From an uncultured Porphyromonadaceae bacterium (lineage in GTDB: Bacteria > Bacteroidota > Bacteroidia > Bacteroidales > Muribaculaceae), in contig CAMWUY010000004.1 in NCBI GenBank assembly GCA_947177615.1, positions 1 through 37,478 of the forward strand: a stretch of 37,478 bases of DNA, read 5' to 3'. The translations under genes and the position numbers were made by a program. The notes under the pieces were generated by a model. The model was not told the DNA's origin, did no database searches, and saw only the letters and a list, made by a program, of their open reading frames with translations. This document shows, one piece after another, positions 1,677-37,478 of this stretch (position 1 is its first letter; every line of letters begins with the position of its first letter).

Positions 1677-3488
1677 ATGCAGGCAATAATATTAGCGGCC
1701 GGAATGGGTCGACGATTGGGCGAGTTTACCGCCGACAATACCAAATGTATGCTTAAGGTCAATGGTGTACGTCTCATCGACCGAATGTTAGAGCAACTTG
1801 GCAGCCTTGAACTTTCACGTATCGTCATAGTGACCGGATATGAGGGCGCAAAGTTACAATCATATCTTACCAAGAAATATCCATCACGCTCTTTGGTATT
1901 TGTTGAAAATCCGGTATATGACAAGACCAATAACATCTACTCCTTATGGTTGGCTCGAGGCTATATGGCCGAGGAGGCTACACTGTTGCTTGAGTCTGAT
2001 CTTATATTTGAGGATGCAGTTCTATATTCAGCCGTCCATAATGATTACAAAGACTGTGCCCTTGTCTCCAAATATGAGTCGTGGATGGATGGTACAGTGG
2101 TGAGAATTGATGATGACAACAACATACTAAACTTTATCACCAAGAAGGGTTTTAATTATGCTGACGTAGACTCCTATTATAAGACCGTTAATATTTACAA
2201 ATTCTCCAAAGACTTCATAGTCAATCATTATCTACCCTTTCTTGAAGCTTATATTCGGGTTTTAGGTGAAAATGAATACTATGAGCAGGTGCTCCGTGTC
2301 ATAACACTGATAGACGGCAGCGGTATTAAGGCGTTGCCCATTACAGGTATGCACTGGTATGAGATCGATGACGTGCAGGATCTACGCATCGCAGAGACGA
2401 TCTTTGCCGAACCGGAGGCACGTCTTGAGAAGATACAGCACTCATACGGAGGTTATTGGCGGTACCCGGGTCTGCTTGACTTCTGTTATCTGGTCAATCC
2501 CTACTTCCCGCGTCGCCGCATGATAGAGGAGATGAAGGCCAATTTCGAACCTCTGCTGCGCGACTATCCATCGGGGATGGGTGTCAATTCGCTGTTGGCT
2601 GCGAAATACTTTTCACTGCGCCACGACTATGTAGTGGTTGGTAACGGAGCTGCCGAACTCATAAAGAGTCTGATGGGTTATCTCACCGGCAAGGTTGGTA
2701 TACTATATCCAACATTTGAGGAATATCCCAATCGTCTGGCGTCGGATCGTATAGTGCCCTTTGTGTCTGAAAATGATGATTTCAGCTATACCGCCGATGA
2801 TCTCATTGATTGGTATGACGAGCACCCGGTAGAAAATCTGTTGGTGGTCAATCCGGAAAATCCGTCAGGTAATCTGATAGACCGTGTCGGCTTAGACCGC
2901 CTGATATCTTGGGCCGAGGCGAAAGGAATACGTCTGATCATCGATGAGTCATTCATCGACTTTGCAGACGAGGCAGCCTCCTTGACGCTCTTGCGCAATG
3001 AAGTCCTCTTATCCCATCCTACATTATGTGTGATGAAGTCGATATCGACGTCGTATGGTGTGCCCGGCCTTCGTCTGGGAGTGCTTGCGAGCGGCGACTG
3101 CTCTCTGATAGAGTATATGCGAAAGGATGTAGGAATATGGAATATAAACTCATTTGCCGAATTTTATTTACAGATATACGGTAAGTATGAGAAAGATTAT
3201 GAACGCTCATGCGATAAATTTCGCGAAGAACGTGCAATCTTTTTCGATGAGTTGTCAGCCATACCATATCTGAAAGTCTATCCGTCGCAAGCCAATTACT
3301 TCCTCTGTGAAGTGACCGGAGGGAAGACAGCCCACGAGCTGACTCTACGTCTGCTGACCGACCACAACATCCTCATCAAGGACTGCACCGCCAAAAAAGG
3401 CTTCACCCACGGACGTCAATACATCCGCATCGCCATCCGCGACCGCCACGACAACCACCGCCTCACCGAAGCATTGAAAGCGTATTAA
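1677..3488 (+). CDS. Nucleotidyltransferase / class I-II aminotransferase fusion lacking the expected PLP lysine
   Basis: The two domains are an N-terminal sugar-phosphate or phosphocholine-type nucleotidyltransferase (about 1-235; LAAGMGRRLGEFTADNTK and a later K-x-ML) and a C-terminal HisC/CobD-like fold-type-I aminotransferase (about 260-603). The second domain keeps NPENPSG (from N392), the pyridoxal-binding IIDESF aspartate (D423) and PGLRLG. The Schiff-base lysine expected in the S-K-x-(F/Y)-G motif is replaced by threonine: KSISTSYG, T458 (acg at 3048-3050). NTase/aminotransferase fusions are known for activating phosphonate or phospho-amino-alcohol head groups with CTP. With LicD further down the operon, an NDP-activated substituent donor is the likely product. 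The C-terminal 50 codons are unusually rich in C-ending codons. It is the first operon gene, 12 nt before the next. The fold call is firm; the substrate is unknown. Confidence 0.85.
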   Translation: MQAIILAAGMGRRLGEFTADNTKCMLKVNGVRLIDRMLEQLGSLELSRIVIVTGYEGAKLQSYLTKKYPSRSLVFVENPVYDKTNNIYSLWLARGYMAEEATLLLESDLIFEDAVLYSAVHNDYKDCALVSKYESWMDGTVVRIDDDNNILNFITKKGFNYADVDSYYKTVNIYKFSKDFIVNHYLPFLEAYIRVLGENEYYEQVLRVITLIDGSGIKALPITGMHWYEIDDVQDLRIAETIFAEPEARLEKIQHSYGGYWRYPGLLDFCYLVNPYFPRRRMIEEMKANFEPLLRDYPSGMGVNSLLAAKYFSLRHDYVVVGNGAAELIKSLMGYLTGKVGILYPTFEEYPNRLASDRIVPFVSENDDFSYTADDLIDWYDEHPVENLLVVNPENPSGNLIDRVGLDRLISWAEAKGIRLIIDESFIDFADEAASLTLLRNEVLLSHPTLCVMKSISTSYGVPGLRLGVLASGDCSLIEYMRKDVGIWNINSFAEFYLQIYGKYEKDYERSCDKFREERAIFFDELSAIPYLKVYPSQANYFLCEVTGGKTAHELTLRLLTDHNILIKDCTAKKGFTHGRQYIRIAIRDRHDNHRLTEALKAY

Positions 3489-3500
3489 AAAAGGAGAAAA

Positions 3501-4502
3501 ATGACTATTTGTATATGCGGAGGAGGGGGATTAGGATTGGTTTGCGCAGGTGTATTCCTGTCGCGAGGTGTTAAGGTCAGACTTATGACCGGACACCCGG
3601 CCGACTGGTCACGCCATATCAAGGTATACGATAAGAGTGGAAAAGAATATAGTGGAGAATTATCACAAATATCATCCGACCCACAGGATGTAATACCCGG
3701 TTCGGACATAATATTCCTTACACTACCCGGCTATCTGATTCAAGAGACCTTAGAGCACATCCGCCCATATCTTGACGCGCATGCGAGTGTAGGAACAGTA
3801 GTTAGCAGTACCGGATTCTTCTTCGCAGCTCATGAAGTTCTCCACGATAAATATACTTTATTCGGATTCCAAAGGGTACCTTATATTGCCCGTGCCCGTA
3901 AATACGGCGAAATTGGAGATTTGTTGGGATATAAGGATAGCCTGAAAGTAGCAATTGAGAATTGCCCGGAAGCTGAAGAATTACGACAGAAATTGGAATG
4001 GCTGTTTGACACACCTGTAACGCATTTGAATAACTTTTACGAAGCATCGCTGACAAATAGTAATCCTATCTTGCACACCGGCCGGATGTATGCCATGTGG
4101 CGAAACTGTCAGAATGAGAAGTATGACAGACAGTCATATTTCTATTCAGATTGGGACAATGAATCATCCGAATATATCATAAGTATGGATGAGGAATTTC
4201 AGAAACTATTACGTACACTCGGCATAAAGGAGGGGGTAATTCCACCTCTGTTAAACTATTACGAATCCGCCGACGCTGAGAGTCTGACCCGAAAAATTAA
4301 AAGCATCCCGGCCTTTCAGTCCATAATGTCCCCGATGAAGCAGGAAGGCGATATATGGGTGCCGGACTTCACAAGCCGCTATTTCACCGAGGACTTCCCC
4401 TACGGACTACGCTTTATCAAGGAGTTGGCTGCGCAACACTCGGTTGCGACCCCCGTTATTGACGAAGTCTATGACTGGGGCATGAGCATGATTGGCCAAT
4501 AG
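3501..4502 (+). CDS. NAD(P)-dependent opine (octopine/nopaline) dehydrogenase-like protein
   Basis: The 333-aa protein opens with a Rossmann dinucleotide-binding motif (CGGGGLGLVCAGVFLSRG) and continues in the pattern of the octopine/nopaline dehydrogenase family: an N-terminal NAD(P) domain, then a helical domain with NSNPILHTGRMYAM at about residues 186-199. Family members reductively couple an alpha-keto acid to an amino group. It starts 12 nt after the NTase/aminotransferase fusion, so the two probably act in one pathway. I infer synthesis of an N-(carboxyalkyl)amino or related substituent for the glycan; opine-type groups are known on some bacterial O-antigens. The substrate cannot be told from sequence. 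ATG at 3501 follows an AAGGAG element. Confidence 0.75.
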   Translation: MTICICGGGGLGLVCAGVFLSRGVKVRLMTGHPADWSRHIKVYDKSGKEYSGELSQISSDPQDVIPGSDIIFLTLPGYLIQETLEHIRPYLDAHASVGTVVSSTGFFFAAHEVLHDKYTLFGFQRVPYIARARKYGEIGDLLGYKDSLKVAIENCPEAEELRQKLEWLFDTPVTHLNNFYEASLTNSNPILHTGRMYAMWRNCQNEKYDRQSYFYSDWDNESSEYIISMDEEFQKLLRTLGIKEGVIPPLLNYYESADAESLTRKIKSIPAFQSIMSPMKQEGDIWVPDFTSRYFTEDFPYGLRFIKELAAQHSVATPVIDEVYDWGMSMIGQ

Positions 4503-4544
4503 AAAAACAGATAGAATTTAAATCAAATTATTATAACAACTTTA

Positions 4545-5357
4545 ATGGAGCTACCATTTCCACATATTGAGGAGCATAAGAAATATCCATCTACATTTTT
4601 GATAAATGTAGAGTGGCGTTTACATTTCAACATCAATAATACCGATAGCTCTTATGATAAATTCTACGGATTTATTAAAGACACCTTTGGTCTGGAATTA
4701 AGACGCGAGGACTACAATGCTATGGGGATATTGCCACTGCGATATAGCCAAAGCGAAGACGCTGCGAATATCAAGATATCAAACAAATTTGCAGAATTCA
4801 GCTTTAATTCCAACGGCTATACATCCTTTGGGGATTCTGCAAGGGATATTCTTGTATCGTTCGTACGATTGATATATCAGTGTGAGGGGAGCGTAAATCA
4901 TATCATGTGTAATAAGAAAAATCTTGTGACCATGCAACGCAACTTCGAGTGTGATGAGTCCGAGATATTATCTATCGTCTTCAGTGATTCGCTGATTGAA
5001 GCGCCCTCACAATTGGTGCGTCCCGCCGACTTCACCAGAGACACTGTTCCTTCAACTCACTTCTATACCGTATCTGCCTATGATTTGATAATACAGGCAT
5101 TATATGGGGTGTATGGAAAACCGGGTACTACTGAATATAACGGCATGGCGATGTACGAATATGGAGCGATGCTTGAATCACAATGTGATTGTCCGGTCTC
5201 CACTAACGCAGCCGATGAATGTATCCGACGTATCGATTCGATTAATGATGTCATGTATGATTTTATTCATTGGGCATTATCTCCCCATATATTTAGAATA
5301 ATGGAGACAGAAAACCAGAATGGTGAATCTGAATTCGATGTTATAGAAATTGAGTGA
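4545..5357 (+). CDS. Unrecognised 270-aa protein, first of a three-gene cassette
   Basis: I do not recognise this protein with confidence. It has no signal peptide and no membrane segment, it is rich in aromatic and acidic residues, and it ends in an acidic tail (ESEFDVIEIE). Its size, the opening beta-type segment (FLINVEWRLHF) and the helical end (INDVMYDFIHWALSPHIF) faintly recall the sporadically distributed TIGR04255 family, which I cannot verify. It lies 42 nt after the opine dehydrogenase gene and 1 nt before the next gene. Neither it nor its two partners resembles a glycan enzyme, so the cassette looks inserted into the operon. It is more AT-rich than the export genes, like its neighbours. 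Confidence 0.65.
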   Translation: MELPFPHIEEHKKYPSTFLINVEWRLHFNINNTDSSYDKFYGFIKDTFGLELRREDYNAMGILPLRYSQSEDAANIKISNKFAEFSFNSNGYTSFGDSARDILVSFVRLIYQCEGSVNHIMCNKKNLVTMQRNFECDESEILSIVFSDSLIEAPSQLVRPADFTRDTVPSTHFYTVSAYDLIIQALYGVYGKPGTTEYNGMAMYEYGAMLESQCDCPVSTNAADECIRRIDSINDVMYDFIHWALSPHIFRIMETENQNGESEFDVIEIE

Positions 5358-5358
5358 A

Positions 5359-5943
5359 ATGAGCAGCATATCATTACAGATAAAAGACTCTTCGACCGGT
5401 TTTCAGTCCGGATGGAAGAAGTATGACGCTATTTCGTCACATTGCTCCGGTGAATATGACACTGTTAAAGTCGGTAATACATTAATGAAAGTTTACCGTA
5501 ACGACAGCGACCACGCAATATTCCTATGGAATAACATCGCCAAGTCACGACAGCACTTGTATCTGAAATCTTTAGACAAACCGGCGGCAACAATATCTTT
5601 AGTTTCCACAAAATGGCCTGTTAAGCGGATTGAATTATTATCTATCGAACAATTGGCCGAATTGAATAAACTCAACTTCGGACTCAATATCTCCCCTGAG
5701 CGCCTTATCTTCGGAGAAGTATCCGACAATCAGACTACTTGTATAGCCCTCGACTTGGGATATGGTATACGCGTACGCATCACAGCCTATTATGGTGACT
5801 TCGACACATATTATCTCTCATTCTTCGAGGGAGACGATATAATCCGTCAGGAGCATTTGGACTTGGACAACACCATTGCCGGCATAAACAACGTATTGAG
5901 AGAATTACATCGCGAGGCTGCTCGTAGGAATGTCACAATCTAA
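5359..5943 (+). CDS. Unrecognised 194-aa protein, second of a three-gene cassette
   Basis: No family is recognised. The track start at 5350 is a TTG overlapping the previous stop. I prefer the ATG at 5359 (MSSISLQI), one base after that stop, which gives 194 aa. The protein is predicted soluble with alternating beta strands (CIALDLGYGIRVRITAYYG) and a basic helical C-terminus (VLRELHREAARRNV). Its 3' end overlaps the next gene by 14 nt, which suggests translational coupling of the trio. It carries no catalytic motif that I can identify. Confidence 0.6.
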   Translation: MSSISLQIKDSSTGFQSGWKKYDAISSHCSGEYDTVKVGNTLMKVYRNDSDHAIFLWNNIAKSRQHLYLKSLDKPAATISLVSTKWPVKRIELLSIEQLAELNKLNFGLNISPERLIFGEVSDNQTTCIALDLGYGIRVRITAYYGDFDTYYLSFFEGDDIIRQEHLDLDNTIAGINNVLRELHREAARRNVTI

Positions 5944-6742
5944 GAAAATGACTGTACACGATAATCCGGCTTATCCGGTAGAGTTGCTACCCTCCGCGTC
6001 ACACATATATCCCCTGGAGGCTGACTCATTTACAGACACAGACAAAACCATAATGCACCGTCGCAGTGATATTGGATATGAAGAATGTTTCTACAACGGC
6101 GTCATCGACCGGTTACACTTCCGGACTGAATGCTCGTCAGAGATTTTCAAACATCCTTACAACCTCTCTCTAAATCTTTTAGGCGGACAATTCATAGCTG
6201 ACCGACACGCTATATGGCGTCAGACCAAACCGGGTAACGACTATTGGCTCGGTGGCACGGATATCAATCTTTCCGACTATTCCGCTTGTTACTCTCAACA
6301 TAATACGGCATATCCTGACTTCTATTTCAAAGTCTCGGACTTGCACGATAAGCCGATAAAATATCCTCGGACTTTCAACCGACAATCTGAAAGTTGGCCA
6401 TATAAAGCGGTTGTAACCGGATTGCGGATAATCGACCATAAAAGTGGTGATAAGAAGATAAAAGGACAGGTGACTGAAGATGTAAAAGGTGTTTTAAAGC
6501 TGAAGCATCGACCCACTAACCTGAATTACTGGCACTGGCAACTCGAGGCAGCGACTTTGAGAAAGGTAACTGTCGGCAACAAGGAGATAACGATTTTAGA
6601 ACCACTCCTCGAAAAGCAAAAATCCTCTGGGTGGGGTAAAAAATTATTATCGGCACAGCGAGAACACCTCTTGTCAGTAATAATGTTCCAATGTCCCGAC
6701 TTCAACACTATTCCGAAAGAGTTCTATCTTCTTCCGGATTAA
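5930..6742 (+). CDS. Unrecognised 270-aa protein, third of a three-gene cassette
   Basis: No family is recognised. The start ATG at 5930 lies inside the preceding gene (14-nt overlap); a second ATG at 5948 is possible. The protein appears soluble, rich in Tyr, His and Trp (for example NDYWLGGTDINLSDYSACYS and NLNYWHWQLEA), without a signal peptide or transmembrane helix. A 154-nt gap follows before the acyl carrier protein, one of the longest gaps in the operon, so the cassette may end here as a unit. The function is unknown. Structural comparison would be more useful than motif reading. Confidence 0.6.
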   Translation: MSQSKKMTVHDNPAYPVELLPSASHIYPLEADSFTDTDKTIMHRRSDIGYEECFYNGVIDRLHFRTECSSEIFKHPYNLSLNLLGGQFIADRHAIWRQTKPGNDYWLGGTDINLSDYSACYSQHNTAYPDFYFKVSDLHDKPIKYPRTFNRQSESWPYKAVVTGLRIIDHKSGDKKIKGQVTEDVKGVLKLKHRPTNLNYWHWQLEAATLRKVTVGNKEITILEPLLEKQKSSGWGKKLLSAQREHLLSVIMFQCPDFNTIPKEFYLLPD

Positions 6743-8591: not shown

Positions 8592-10388
8592 ATGATACAT
8601 ATTACCGACAAGACCGAATGTTGCGGATGTAATGCATGTGGCGACATCTGTCCGACACAAGCCATAAGTTTTCACAACGATAATGAAGGTTTCTGGTATC
8701 CTGAGGTAGACCGGAACAAATGTATCAATTGCGGACTATGTGACAAATCCTGTCCGATGCTACACACCGACACATTGCACTCTCACGGACAACGAGAACC
8801 TAAGGTATATGGGGGGTATCACAAGAATATATCAATCCGTTTTGACTCAACATCCGGAGGAGCATTCTCCGCTTTGGCAAACGCAATGTATAAGCAAGGA
8901 GGATATGTCAGCGGTGCAGTATTCAATCCTGATTGGACAGTCTCCAACTATATTTCCAATAATAAGAAAGACCTCTCGCGTCTGAGGTCAAGCAAATACG
9001 TTGAAAGTAACGCCGAGGGACTATATAAGGAGATTAAACGTCTGCTTAAAGAGGGTGAAAAGGTCTTGGCTTGTGGCTCTCCGTGTCAGATGGCCGGACT
9101 GCGTACATTTCTTGGGAAAGACTACGACAACCTGATTATCGTTGACTTTCTATGTCGTGCCACCAACTCTCCCAAGGCCTATCGGCGATATCTTGAATAT
9201 CTTGAAGATGTCTACGGAGGAAAGATAGTTTCTATCAAAGCCAAGAATAAAGACCATGGGTGGCGTTCATTGGCTCGCAAGGTCGTTTTTGACAATGGTA
9301 AAGTATATTATGGTGAGGGTCACGAGGACCCGTACCGCCGTGGCTATCATCTGAACTACTTTGAACGCCCCTGTTGTTATAATTGCAAATTCAAGGGCTT
9401 ACCACGTATCGCCGACATCTCTTTAGCTGACTTCTGGGGCATCGAGAACATTGACAAATCCATCGACGGCAATCTCGGCACATCAATGATTATGATTAAT
9501 ACCGAAAAAGGAGAGAAATTTTTTGACGGTATCAAGAGCAAAATGGTCTTGAAGGAATTTGACGCCCAGAGAGCTTTCAGAGGAAATTTCAGCGTTGTAA
9601 TGGGAGACTGCTGTCATGCGCCCAAAGGTTATGATAGAGAACAAATGTTCAAAGATATGGACGCAATGCGATTTGACGCTCTGGCCGATAAGTACTTCCC
9701 GTATCGTCCGGCATCCGGGATTCGCTCTATCAAATCATTGATTAAAAAACTTCTTAAATTCGGATATAACACGTTACGCAATCCCTCTCAGTTATTACGG
9801 AATATAAAATGGAGTGTATCGCCACATATTGACGGCAAAGTAATCTTTAGAAGCCATTGTGCGGTAGACCTGAGGGATGGAGCAAAAATCATGGTAAACA
9901 AAGGCGGAGTACTGAATTTCGGAGATAAAAGAAATCTGAAATCTAAATTTGAATCCCGTCTTCTGTTGGAAAGAAATTCCCGGCTTATCATAAATGGCAA
10001 CCGTAATATCATGTACGACTGCGACATCCAGATATTCGAAGGAGCGAACCTCACATTCGGCTCGGGACGCTGTAATTCCGGGCTGAAGATTGTATGTGCC
10101 GAGAGCATCATAATCGGTGATAATGTGAACATCGGCCGTGATGTCTGGATTAGAGACAATAACGGAGGACATTTTATCATTCAGACAGGTTACACCGACA
10201 GAGCTGCCGTCATTATCAACGATAACGTATGGATAGGCTCCAATGTTGTCATCATGAAAGGTGTCACAATCGGAGAGGGTGCTGTTGTCGCAGCCAATAG
10301 TGTCGTAACCTCCAATGTCCCGGCGGGGTCAATGGTAAGTGGTAATCCCGCCAAGGTCGTTTCTGAAAATGTAATATGGGTAAAGTAA
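8592..10388 (+). CDS. FrhB-like iron-sulfur protein fused to a hexapeptide-repeat acyltransferase
   Basis: This 598-aa fusion has three parts. Two 4Fe-4S motifs come first (C10/C13/C16/C20-P and C44/C47/C50/C54-P). A coenzyme F420 hydrogenase beta-subunit-like domain follows to about residue 370 (ACGSPCQMAGLRTFLG; RPCCYNCKFKG). Last is a left-handed beta-helix acyltransferase (about 430-598) with isoleucine-rich hexapeptides ending INDNVWIGSNVVIMKG and SGNPAKVV. FrhB-like proteins are common partners of pyruvyl transferases in Bacteroidales glycan loci, and one lies downstream at 14936, but the redox role is not established. The trimeric LbH domain should O- or N-acylate a sugar. Fusion of the two is unusual; they are normally separate genes. 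The 3' end overlaps the next gene by 13 nt. There is no frameshift and the reading frame is continuous. Confidence 0.85.
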   Translation: MIHITDKTECCGCNACGDICPTQAISFHNDNEGFWYPEVDRNKCINCGLCDKSCPMLHTDTLHSHGQREPKVYGGYHKNISIRFDSTSGGAFSALANAMYKQGGYVSGAVFNPDWTVSNYISNNKKDLSRLRSSKYVESNAEGLYKEIKRLLKEGEKVLACGSPCQMAGLRTFLGKDYDNLIIVDFLCRATNSPKAYRRYLEYLEDVYGGKIVSIKAKNKDHGWRSLARKVVFDNGKVYYGEGHEDPYRRGYHLNYFERPCCYNCKFKGLPRIADISLADFWGIENIDKSIDGNLGTSMIMINTEKGEKFFDGIKSKMVLKEFDAQRAFRGNFSVVMGDCCHAPKGYDREQMFKDMDAMRFDALADKYFPYRPASGIRSIKSLIKKLLKFGYNTLRNPSQLLRNIKWSVSPHIDGKVIFRSHCAVDLRDGAKIMVNKGGVLNFGDKRNLKSKFESRLLLERNSRLIINGNRNIMYDCDIQIFEGANLTFGSGRCNSGLKIVCAESIIIGDNVNIGRDVWIRDNNGGHFIIQTGYTDRAAVIINDNVWIGSNVVIMKGVTIGEGAVVAANSVVTSNVPAGSMVSGNPAKVVSENVIWVK

Positions 10389-16074: not shown

Positions 16075-16812
16075 ATGAATTCAAAACAACTGAGAAAGAT
16101 TTTCCACCCGTTTACCAAGATACCGGGTGTTCGACCCTTATTGGGAGGACTATATAGGAAATTAATCTATGGTCCCGCAAGAAAAAAAGAAATTGAGACT
16201 TTCCAGAAAAATGGTCTCAGAGTGTTACAGGAATTTGACACCATCCTGAGAAGTCTTGATGTCCCGTACTGTCTAATGTGGGGTTCACTCATTGGGGCAG
16301 TCCGCGAAAAGGGCTTTATCAAACATGATTTTGACATTGATGTGGCGATGTGGCGCGAGGATTACTCCGATGCGATGGATAAGGCTTTACTTGATGCCGG
16401 ATTCCGCCACGTTCAGCGATTTCTGATAGATGGCGGTGAAAATGGTATGGAGGACACCTATGAAAAGGAGGGGGTTGCCATAGACATATTCTATTTTGTT
16501 ACGGACTCCAAAACGGGAAGGTCATTCTGCTGTAGTCTTGATTACATCAACGGTGAGGTGACATGGGAAGATTGCTTTAGAAAATATGGCACTACCATCC
16601 TGTTCCGCGATGAGATACCATTACCTCGCAAGTTCGTTTACACACCTTTCGAAACTATTGAACTCCCAATTCCGGAGAACTACGATTTTATCCTTAGACG
16701 AGTATATGGAGATAATTACATGACTCCCGACCCGAATTGGACACGAGAAATTTCCCCGTACATTTGTGAATTTAAGGGTCGTAAGATTGAATATCTAATT
16801 TACGACAAGTAA
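16075..16812 (+). CDS. LicD-family phosphotransferase
   Basis: The 245-aa protein has the LicD (PF04991) nucleotidyltransferase-fold core WGSLIGAVREKGFIKHDFDID, with G70-S71 and metal-binding acidic residues D85, D87 and D89, followed by a third acidic strand VAIDIFYF. LicD proteins move phosphocholine or similar phospho-groups from a CDP-activated donor to a glycan. The NTase half of the first operon gene could make such a donor. No choline kinase or choline transporter is present, so the head group is unlikely to be ordinary choline taken from the medium. It is 9 nt before the polymerase gene. Confidence 0.9.
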   Translation: MNSKQLRKIFHPFTKIPGVRPLLGGLYRKLIYGPARKKEIETFQKNGLRVLQEFDTILRSLDVPYCLMWGSLIGAVREKGFIKHDFDIDVAMWREDYSDAMDKALLDAGFRHVQRFLIDGGENGMEDTYEKEGVAIDIFYFVTDSKTGRSFCCSLDYINGEVTWEDCFRKYGTTILFRDEIPLPRKFVYTPFETIELPIPENYDFILRRVYGDNYMTPDPNWTREISPYICEFKGRKIEYLIYDK

Positions 16813-35353: not shown

Positions 35354-37478
35354 TTAATACTCATCCCAGGCGCGGATCTCTACCTCAGTGGGTTTGAGTT
35401 CGGTGAAAGCTGAGATAAATGCCTCGGCGAGCCGCGTATTGGTGAGCAATGGTATATTGAGGTCAATGGCCGCGCGCCGCAGTAAATAGCCGTCGCTCAG
35501 CTCCTTGGGGGTAAGGTTTTTAGGAACATTGACCATCAGGTCGATCTCGTGATTATGCAGGAGGGTGAGCACCTGTGGCTGCATATCCTTCTCGGACGGG
35601 GTGAAGACGCGTACGGCCGGTATGCCATTCTCGGAGAGGAATGCGTGGGTGCCGCGTGTGGCATAGAGGGTGTATCCGGCCTTATGGAGCAGTTTGGCAC
35701 TATCGAGCATGGCGGCCTTATGGCGGTATGAACCGGTCGACAGAAGCACACCCTTGCGCGGTATGCGATGACCGACAGCCATCAGGGCTTTGAGCACAGC
35801 CTCGCCGGTGTCCTGACCCAGACAGCCTACCTCGCCGGTAGAGCTCATATCTACACCGAGCACCGGGTCGGAACCCTGCAGGCGTGAGAAGGAGAACTGG
35901 GAGGCCTTGATGCCGACATAGTCGAGGTCGAACGCGCTCTTGTTGGGTTTCTCCACCGGGATGCCGAGCATGATCTTGGTGGCAAGATCGATAAAGTTGA
36001 TCTTGAGGACTTTGCTGACGAACGGGAAGGAACGTGAGGCGCGCAGGTTGCACTCTATGACCTTGATATCATTGTTCTTGGCGAGATACTGTATGTTGAA
36101 CGGTCCGGAGATGTTGAGCGCCCTGGCGATCTGTCCGGATATCTTCTTGATACGTCTCACTGTCTCGACGTAGAGCTTCTGCGGTGGAAACTGAATGGTA
36201 GCGTCACCGGAGTGTACTCCCGCAAACTCGATATGTTCCGAAATGGCGTATGCCTTGATCTCGCCATCCTGAGCGACAGCATCCATCTCTATCTCTTTGG
36301 CATCCTGGATAAACTCGGTTACGACGACTGGATGCTGCTTGCTGACGTTGGCCGCCAGACGGAGGAAACGTTCGAGTTCCTCGTGATTGCTGCAAACGTT
36401 CATCGCGGCACCTGAGAGTACGTAGCTCGGGCGGACGAGAACCGGGAAACCGACCTCGTCGATAAATGAGTTGATATCATCCATATTGGTGAGCTCGCGC
36501 CAGCGTGGCTGGTCGATACCCAGACGGTCGAGCATGGATGAGAATTTGTGGCGGTCCTCTGCGTTATCGATACTGCGGGCTGATGTGCCGAGGATATTTA
36601 CACCCTGCTCGTCAAGGCGCATTGCCAGATTGTTGGGGATCTGGCCGCCTACACTCAATATAGTGCCGTGAGGTTGCTCAAGGTCAAGGATATCCATGAC
36701 ACGCTCGAAGGTGAGCTCGTCAAAGTAGAGACGGTCACACATATCATAATCGGTGGAGACTGTCTCCGGGTTATAGTTGATCATGACGGAGCGCCAGCCT
36801 TCCTTCTTGACAGTGAGCAGGGCATTGACCGAACACCAGTCAAACTCCACACTTGAGCCGATACGGTAGGCTCCGGAGCCGAGCACGACAACCGACTTGT
36901 GATCTCCCTCGTATCTGATATCGTTTTCCGAACCGTTGTATGTGATATACAGATAGTTGGTCTGTGCGGGATATTCGGCGGCGAGAGTGTCGATCTGTTT
37001 TACCACCGGAGTGATGCCACGGCTCTTACGATGACGGCGCACCTGAAGGCTGATCTCCTCGGCGGTGCCGCCGGTGTGGCCTAATACCGAGCGAGCGATC
37101 TGAAAATCGCTGAACCCCTGCTGCTTGGCCTGACGCAACAGCTCGTCGGGGAGAGTGTCAAGACTCTTGTATCGCTCGAGCTCGCGGGAGGTATTGATGA
37201 TATTCTGAAGTTTATACAGAAACCAACGGTCTATCTTGGTGAGCTCGTGTATGCGGTCTACGCTGTAACCCTCGTTCATGGCCTTGGCAATGACGAAGAT
37301 ACGATTGTCAGTCGGTTGAGCCAAAGCTGCATCTATATCGTTGATGCGGAAGTCCTTGTTTTCGACAAATCCGTGCATGCCGCGTCCGATCATGCGGAGA
37401 CCCTTCTGCATAGCCTCCTCAAATGTGCGTCCGATAGCCATCACTTCGCCGACAGACTTCATGGATGAGCCGATTTCG
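35354..37478 (-). CDS. carB: Carbamoyl-phosphate synthase large subunit, partial (C-terminal about 707 residues)
   Basis: The frame is open to the right edge, so this is the C-terminal two thirds of a protein normally about 1,075 aa. The M at 37462 (MKSVGEVMAIGRTFEEA) is an internal residue, not the start; upstream codons read EIGSS. It contains the oligomerisation region, the second ATP-grasp domain (VVLGSGAYRIGSSVEFDW; IKVIECNLRASRSFPFVSK) and the C-terminal MGS-like allosteric domain (GVLLSTGSYRHKAAML). It makes carbamoyl phosphate for arginine and pyrimidine synthesis. prmC follows 9 nt downstream. Confidence 0.97.
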   Translation of the reverse strand, partial: EIGSSMKSVGEVMAIGRTFEEAMQKGLRMIGRGMHGFVENKDFRINDIDAALAQPTDNRIFVIAKAMNEGYSVDRIHELTKIDRWFLYKLQNIINTSRELERYKSLDTLPDELLRQAKQQGFSDFQIARSVLGHTGGTAEEISLQVRRHRKSRGITPVVKQIDTLAAEYPAQTNYLYITYNGSENDIRYEGDHKSVVVLGSGAYRIGSSVEFDWCSVNALLTVKKEGWRSVMINYNPETVSTDYDMCDRLYFDELTFERVMDILDLEQPHGTILSVGGQIPNNLAMRLDEQGVNILGTSARSIDNAEDRHKFSSMLDRLGIDQPRWRELTNMDDINSFIDEVGFPVLVRPSYVLSGAAMNVCSNHEELERFLRLAANVSKQHPVVVTEFIQDAKEIEMDAVAQDGEIKAYAISEHIEFAGVHSGDATIQFPPQKLYVETVRRIKKISGQIARALNISGPFNIQYLAKNNDIKVIECNLRASRSFPFVSKVLKINFIDLATKIMLGIPVEKPNKSAFDLDYVGIKASQFSFSRLQGSDPVLGVDMSSTGEVGCLGQDTGEAVLKALMAVGHRIPRKGVLLSTGSYRHKAAMLDSAKLLHKAGYTLYATRGTHAFLSENGIPAVRVFTPSEKDMQPQVLTLLHNHEIDLMVNVPKNLTPKELSDGYLLRRAAIDLNIPLLTNTRLAEAFISAFTELKPTEVEIRAWDEY

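Follow-up and report, generated by a model that had tools for sequence, protein, structure and literature searches.

A threonine at the Schiff-base lysine position of a CobD-like domain fused to a nucleotidyltransferase in a Bacteroidales polysaccharide locus

The stretch of DNA analysed here (the window, 37,478 nucleotides) encodes a two-domain fusion protein in which threonine occupies the position of the catalytic Schiff-base lysine. This change, K458T, is a singleton, since lysine was found at the site elsewhere in the family, and in the genus and order samples. Because the relatives all keep the lysine and the rest of the protein is undecayed, a recent one-off mutation or a sequencing error is likelier than a new kind of enzyme. 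By a narrow balance of probability, we regard K458T as a real, recent inactivating change in a protein that is otherwise typical of its Bacteroidales fusion family.

The reading frame of the fusion gene was uninterrupted and contained VMKSISTSYGVPGLRLG (Table 1). Pfam recognized an NTP-transferase domain at residues 3–156 (PF12804, NTP_transf_3, and PF00483) and Aminotran_1_2 at residues 309–600 (PF00155, class I/II), the CobD-like fold-type-I PLP domain as a whole comprising residues about 260–603. The N-terminal domain had the fold and the signature of LicC/PntC-type cytidylyltransferases, by the same two Pfam models and by sequence matches to 6pd1 and 1jyk, and its substrates would be CTP and an aminoalkyl phosphate or phosphonate. 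The top NCBIfam model was threonine-phosphate decarboxylase CobD (TIGR01140), with 168.3 bits, under the cut-off of 290.55 bits, and the C-terminal domain likely represents a subfamily distinct from the curated CobD. The structure was modelled with AlphaFold2 (mean pLDDT 88) and compared by Foldseek. The term “aminotransferase domain”, used in an earlier note on this DNA, is not precise enough: among characterised proteins, the closest are two decarboxylases, SMUL_1544 and CobD, and the domain is better read as serine/threonine-phosphate-decarboxylase-like.

Table 1 Features of the fusion gene and its locus (positions in the window).
Feature	Position	Strand	Basis
LicC-like nucleotidyltransferase + CobD-like fold-type-I PLP fusion, 603 aa	1677..3488	+	Pfam, NCBIfam, AlphaFold2, Foldseek
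N-terminal nucleotidyltransferase domain, residues 1–240	1677..2396	+	Pfam, invariant columns
PLP-site loop NPENPSG, residues 392–398; family norm NPDNPSG	2850..2870	+	Family alignment
D423, conserved Asp, intact	2943..2945	+	Invariant column
K454, Lys in 87/87, column separate from Schiff-base lysine	3036..3038	+	Family alignment
T458 (ACG) at Schiff-base lysine position; relatives AAG or AAA	3048..3050	+	Family alignment, motif searches
Octopine/nopaline-dehydrogenase-family protein, 333 aa; usual partner directly downstream	3501..4502	+	Pfam PF02317, synteny
LicD-family protein, candidate transferase for activated headgroup	16075..16812	+	Pfam PF04991

In pairwise phmmer alignments, with no gaps nearby, T458 fell on the Schiff-base lysine of SMUL_1544 (6oux, KSLSKDFG) and of CobD (1lc5, RSLTKFYA). 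Translation and alignment thus uphold the earlier assignment of this threonine to the lysine position, where the (K/R)S-x-(S/T)-K motif of CobD-like enzymes ends in T458 instead. The codon is a single transversion away from AAG. The other PLP-site motifs of CobD-like enzymes, NPxNP(S/T)G, D423 and PGLRLG, were found together with the fold, D394E aside; D423 presumably pairs with the PLP ring nitrogen. The earlier note had called NPENPSG, D423 and PGLRLG intact. All three are indeed present, but NPENPSG itself departs from the family norm by D394E, a unique and conservative change inside the PLP loop. It had also named K454 as a possible conserved substitute, and a shifted alignment could have made K454 the true Schiff-base lysine. 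This is out, as K454 and the lysine column are separately conserved, both being invariant in the family.

The 80 top-ranking loci from a scan of 84,980 species genomes, almost all of them full length, supplied the relatives, and a genus search added others. The window protein belonged to this family with 57–80% identity along about 600 aa and shared synteny, and all full-length relatives fetched had the same two-domain layout. The homologue alignment at residue 458, proposed earlier as a check, gave lysine in 86 of the 86 other full-length members (54 AAG and 32 AAA codons) and threonine in the window protein only. By degenerate-DNA search, the Thr-codon version of the motif occurred in one of 397 family genomes, that of the window. 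Among genomes with the motif, any codon being allowed at this site, AAR was found in 31 of 32 from the genus and in 10 of 11 from the order sample, the exception being both times the window genome. No clade sharing threonine at codon 458 was found across the genus, family and order samples.

The window genome assembly is fragmented (213 contigs, 82% complete). A second intact copy of the gene was not found in it, the sole other match being a weak one to a nucleotidyltransferase fragment, and there was no copy from another strain among viral contigs and plasmids. The contig of the closest sister genome, G093, whose carB is 94% identical to that of the window genome, begins inside the fusion gene, 3' of codon 458, and holds only the last 42 codons.

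For constraint on the rest of the protein, we counted departures from columns that were unvarying in all other family members. Two of 140 such columns departed in the window protein, D394E and K458T, with a family mean of 0.31 per sequence and a maximum of 4. All 68 invariant columns before residue 250, in the nucleotidyltransferase domain, were kept, and 70 of the 72 invariant codons of the PLP domain were unchanged. The gene had no stops or frameshifts, and no excess change in the PLP domain. On a fixed maximum-likelihood tree, the terminal branch measured 0.244 for the nucleotidyltransferase domain and 0.240 for the PLP domain, a ratio ranking 32 of 87; the PLP domain is not evolving faster than its partner. 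Four-fold sites were used because pairwise dS was saturated, and 63% of them differed between the window gene and its closest full-length relative. Neutral evolution of the PLP domain over as little as 10% of the branch would be expected to give ~11 hits at the 72 invariant codons; two were seen (P of two or fewer, about 0.001). Invariant columns, branch lengths and the four-fold-site expectation together rule out a domain-specific decay, and a long-past loss of PLP-domain function is excluded.

These results bear directly on the idea that the C-terminal domain has been non-catalytic since long ago and survives in a structural or regulatory role, appended to the nucleotidyltransferase. The intact nucleotidyltransferase domain and the layout common to the full-length relatives would suit such a role; the retention of nearly all invariant PLP-domain codons over a long branch is incompatible with long neutral evolution, and the rate of the domain, no higher than that of its partner, also speaks against it. 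We find this idea hardly credible. With old decay excluded, three cases are left: a very recent loss of the lysine, a wrong base, or full constraint in the absence of the lysine.

A wrong base would have arisen in consensus calling or assembly, the genome being a fragmented metagenome-type assembly, and the organism's own enzyme would have the lysine. We consider this quite possible, if short of probable. The change is a singleton from an incomplete genome and lies one base off the universal AAR, in a protein with no other decay. Moreover, the reading of many sequence windows turns up errors in catalytic codons by selection. Against this, short-read consensus bases are usually correct, and the fusion gene, the octopine-dehydrogenase-family gene and carB were free of frameshifts, stops and excess odd residues, so errors are not frequent locally. 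Of 356 invariant carB columns, two showed conservative departures in the incomplete window copy, a count comparable to those of its relatives, and the octopine-dehydrogenase-family neighbour had none in 29. Since both genes are clean, the contig is not error-rich; one single error is still compatible with these counts. A high local error rate was rejected, the carB departures resembling those of relatives. Six other fold-type-I enzymes of the window genome with a readable site (L134, L136, L138, L139, L140 and L141) keep the lysine; L135, L137, L142 and L143, where the search pattern gave no reading, are outside this count. On balance we lean towards a genuine strain-level mutation, the capsule locus being a variable one, rather than an error in the consensus.

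carB itself (35354–37478) is broken off by the window end, and a carB-matching frame, probably its other half, lies on contig G000:C53. As the gene is probably split across contigs, the window is apparently bounded by a contig end.

The third possibility is a functional enzyme without the lysine, its domain adapted to non-covalent PLP or PMP with altered chemistry. Fold-type-I enzymes with the lysine mutated normally lose most of their activity. Threonine stands at the site in no relative, D394E is the sole accompanying change in an invariant column and a conservative one, and there is neither a His replacement nor another trait of the known PMP-dependent dehydratases. For such an enzyme speak the conservation of all other PLP-site residues, the lack of acceleration in the PLP domain, the position of the second unique residue, D394E, in the PLP loop, and the existence of active fold-type-I enzymes with non-covalent PLP (PMC6697681). 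We judge this reading improbable, and very improbable in its more specific form, in which the CobD-like domain recently switched to lysine-independent PLP/PMP chemistry through K458T and D394E while a selected capsule-decoration function was kept. The earlier note had offered three options, a dead domain, use of PLP or PMP without a lysine, and an error or recent mutation. Of these, the alignment backs a domain killed by a recent change, or an error; a lineage of lysine-less enzymes is disfavoured, because no other genome shares K458T.

The fusion gene forms part of a polysaccharide locus that also contains genes for a family-4 glycosyltransferase, a pyruvyl transferase, an ATP-grasp protein and a LicD-family protein. 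LicD relatives were found in 20 of 100 loci, within the fetched flanks. The locus also encodes a 598-aa single chain (8592–10388) combining ferredoxin (4Fe-4S), FrhB/FdhB-type and hexapeptide-acyltransferase domains. Within 1.5 kb downstream of the fusion gene, 87 distinct loci carried an octopine-dehydrogenase-family gene (44 loci), an ornithine-cyclodeaminase/mu-crystallin-family gene (35) or neither (8). A dehydrogenase neighbour of either type was therefore present in 79 of 87 loci, the window having the octopine-dehydrogenase type. This suggests that the two gene families are interchangeable, as alternative dehydrogenases for the same amine intermediate of capsule decoration. Dehydrogenase positions were 3501–4502 in the window, L001:5883–6785 and L103:904–1812.

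Three adjacent ORFs with no Pfam match (4545–6742) were present in G093 and absent from all other fetched loci. The G093 locus (L103) was mosaic relative to window positions 3356–6588: the 3'-terminal 126 bases of the fusion gene were 95% identical, the octopine-dehydrogenase-family gene was replaced by other genes, diverged hypotheticals followed, and the sequences were near-identical from about window position 5730. This mosaic looks like the result of cassettes having been exchanged within the capsule locus. In L103, genes for a nucleotidyltransferase-domain protein and, after it, a HEPN-domain protein (L103:175–893), resembling an MNT/HEPN toxin-antitoxin pair, separate the fusion gene from the ornithine-cyclodeaminase-family gene.

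Gene content and domain assignments suggest that the fusion gene and the neighbouring dehydrogenase may form a pathway that decorates the capsule with a group of the aminoethyl-phosphate type, activated on a nucleotide. The ancestral C-terminal domain would carry out PLP-dependent decarboxylation of an amino-acid phosphate of the serine- or threonine-phosphate type. The product would be activated by the N-terminal domain as a nucleotide conjugate, with CTP as the probable donor of CMP; the downstream dehydrogenase of either type would reductively modify the amine, and a LicD-type transferase would place the headgroup on the capsule glycan. A literature search gave no paper on such a fusion paired with an opine-type dehydrogenase at capsule loci, nor one describing this chemistry.

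Loss of the Schiff-base lysine removes both the internal aldimine and the general acid/base at this position, so that decarboxylation should fail or proceed very slowly. For the window copy we predict that the nucleotidyltransferase is intact and still works, as all N-terminal invariant residues are kept, and that the PLP domain is dead or crippled: with no internal aldimine, it should have no activity or a rate lower by orders of magnitude. The cell would then lose the decoration or need the amine phosphate from another source. Taken alone, K458T carries little general weight, being a single inactivating change or error in a capsule gene that looks dispensable. If proved, a working lysine-less CobD-like enzyme would let the contribution of the Schiff-base lysine be tested cleanly in a natural protein. 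The family is of wider interest: its fusion gene is widespread in Bacteroidales and nearly always lies beside a gene of one of two dehydrogenase families, which makes the proposed pathway, for an unusual amine-phosphate decoration on capsules of gut bacteria, testable.

Among known systems, the best PDB sequence matches to the C-terminal domain were SMUL_1544 (6oux, a decarboxylase of Sulfurospirillum multivorans) and CobD, with E-values of 5e-39 and 2e-29. SMUL_1544 and CobD (L-threonine-O-3-phosphate decarboxylase; 1lc5, 1lc7 and 1lc8) were also the best fold matches outside fusions, with target TM-scores of 0.79–0.84. Both are single-domain proteins with the Schiff-base lysine present, whereas the window protein has threonine and a fused nucleotidyltransferase in front.

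The PMP-dependent dehydratases of the ColD and E1/RfbH type are likewise fold-type-I enzymes without the Schiff-base lysine. They form a separate branch of the fold (DegT/sugar-aminotransferase) and have His at the lysine position. The window protein has threonine there, not His, and belongs to a CobD/HisC-like family; the likeness to PMP-dependent sugar dehydratases raised in the earlier note therefore finds no sequence support.

The same domain order, a LicC-like cytidylyltransferase followed by a fold-type-I domain, is found in Tde1415 (PntC-AEPT; 6pd1 and 6pd2). It was the top whole-chain Foldseek match to the window protein, yet with low TM-scores of 0.34–0.38. Its C-terminal domain is a 2-aminoethylphosphonate transaminase, of class V according to the PDB entry, whereas that of the window protein is CobD-like (PF00155) and not an AEP transaminase, the phmmer match to 6pd1 covering the nucleotidyltransferase domain only. 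Tde1415 had non-covalent PLP in the crystal; aminotransferase activity was shown and the requisite active-site features were described (PMC6697681). Finally, Cj1436 of Campylobacter jejuni is a serine-phosphate decarboxylase that supplies ethanolamine phosphate for the capsule (PMC12409886) and may, by analogy, be a functional counterpart of the C-terminal domain.
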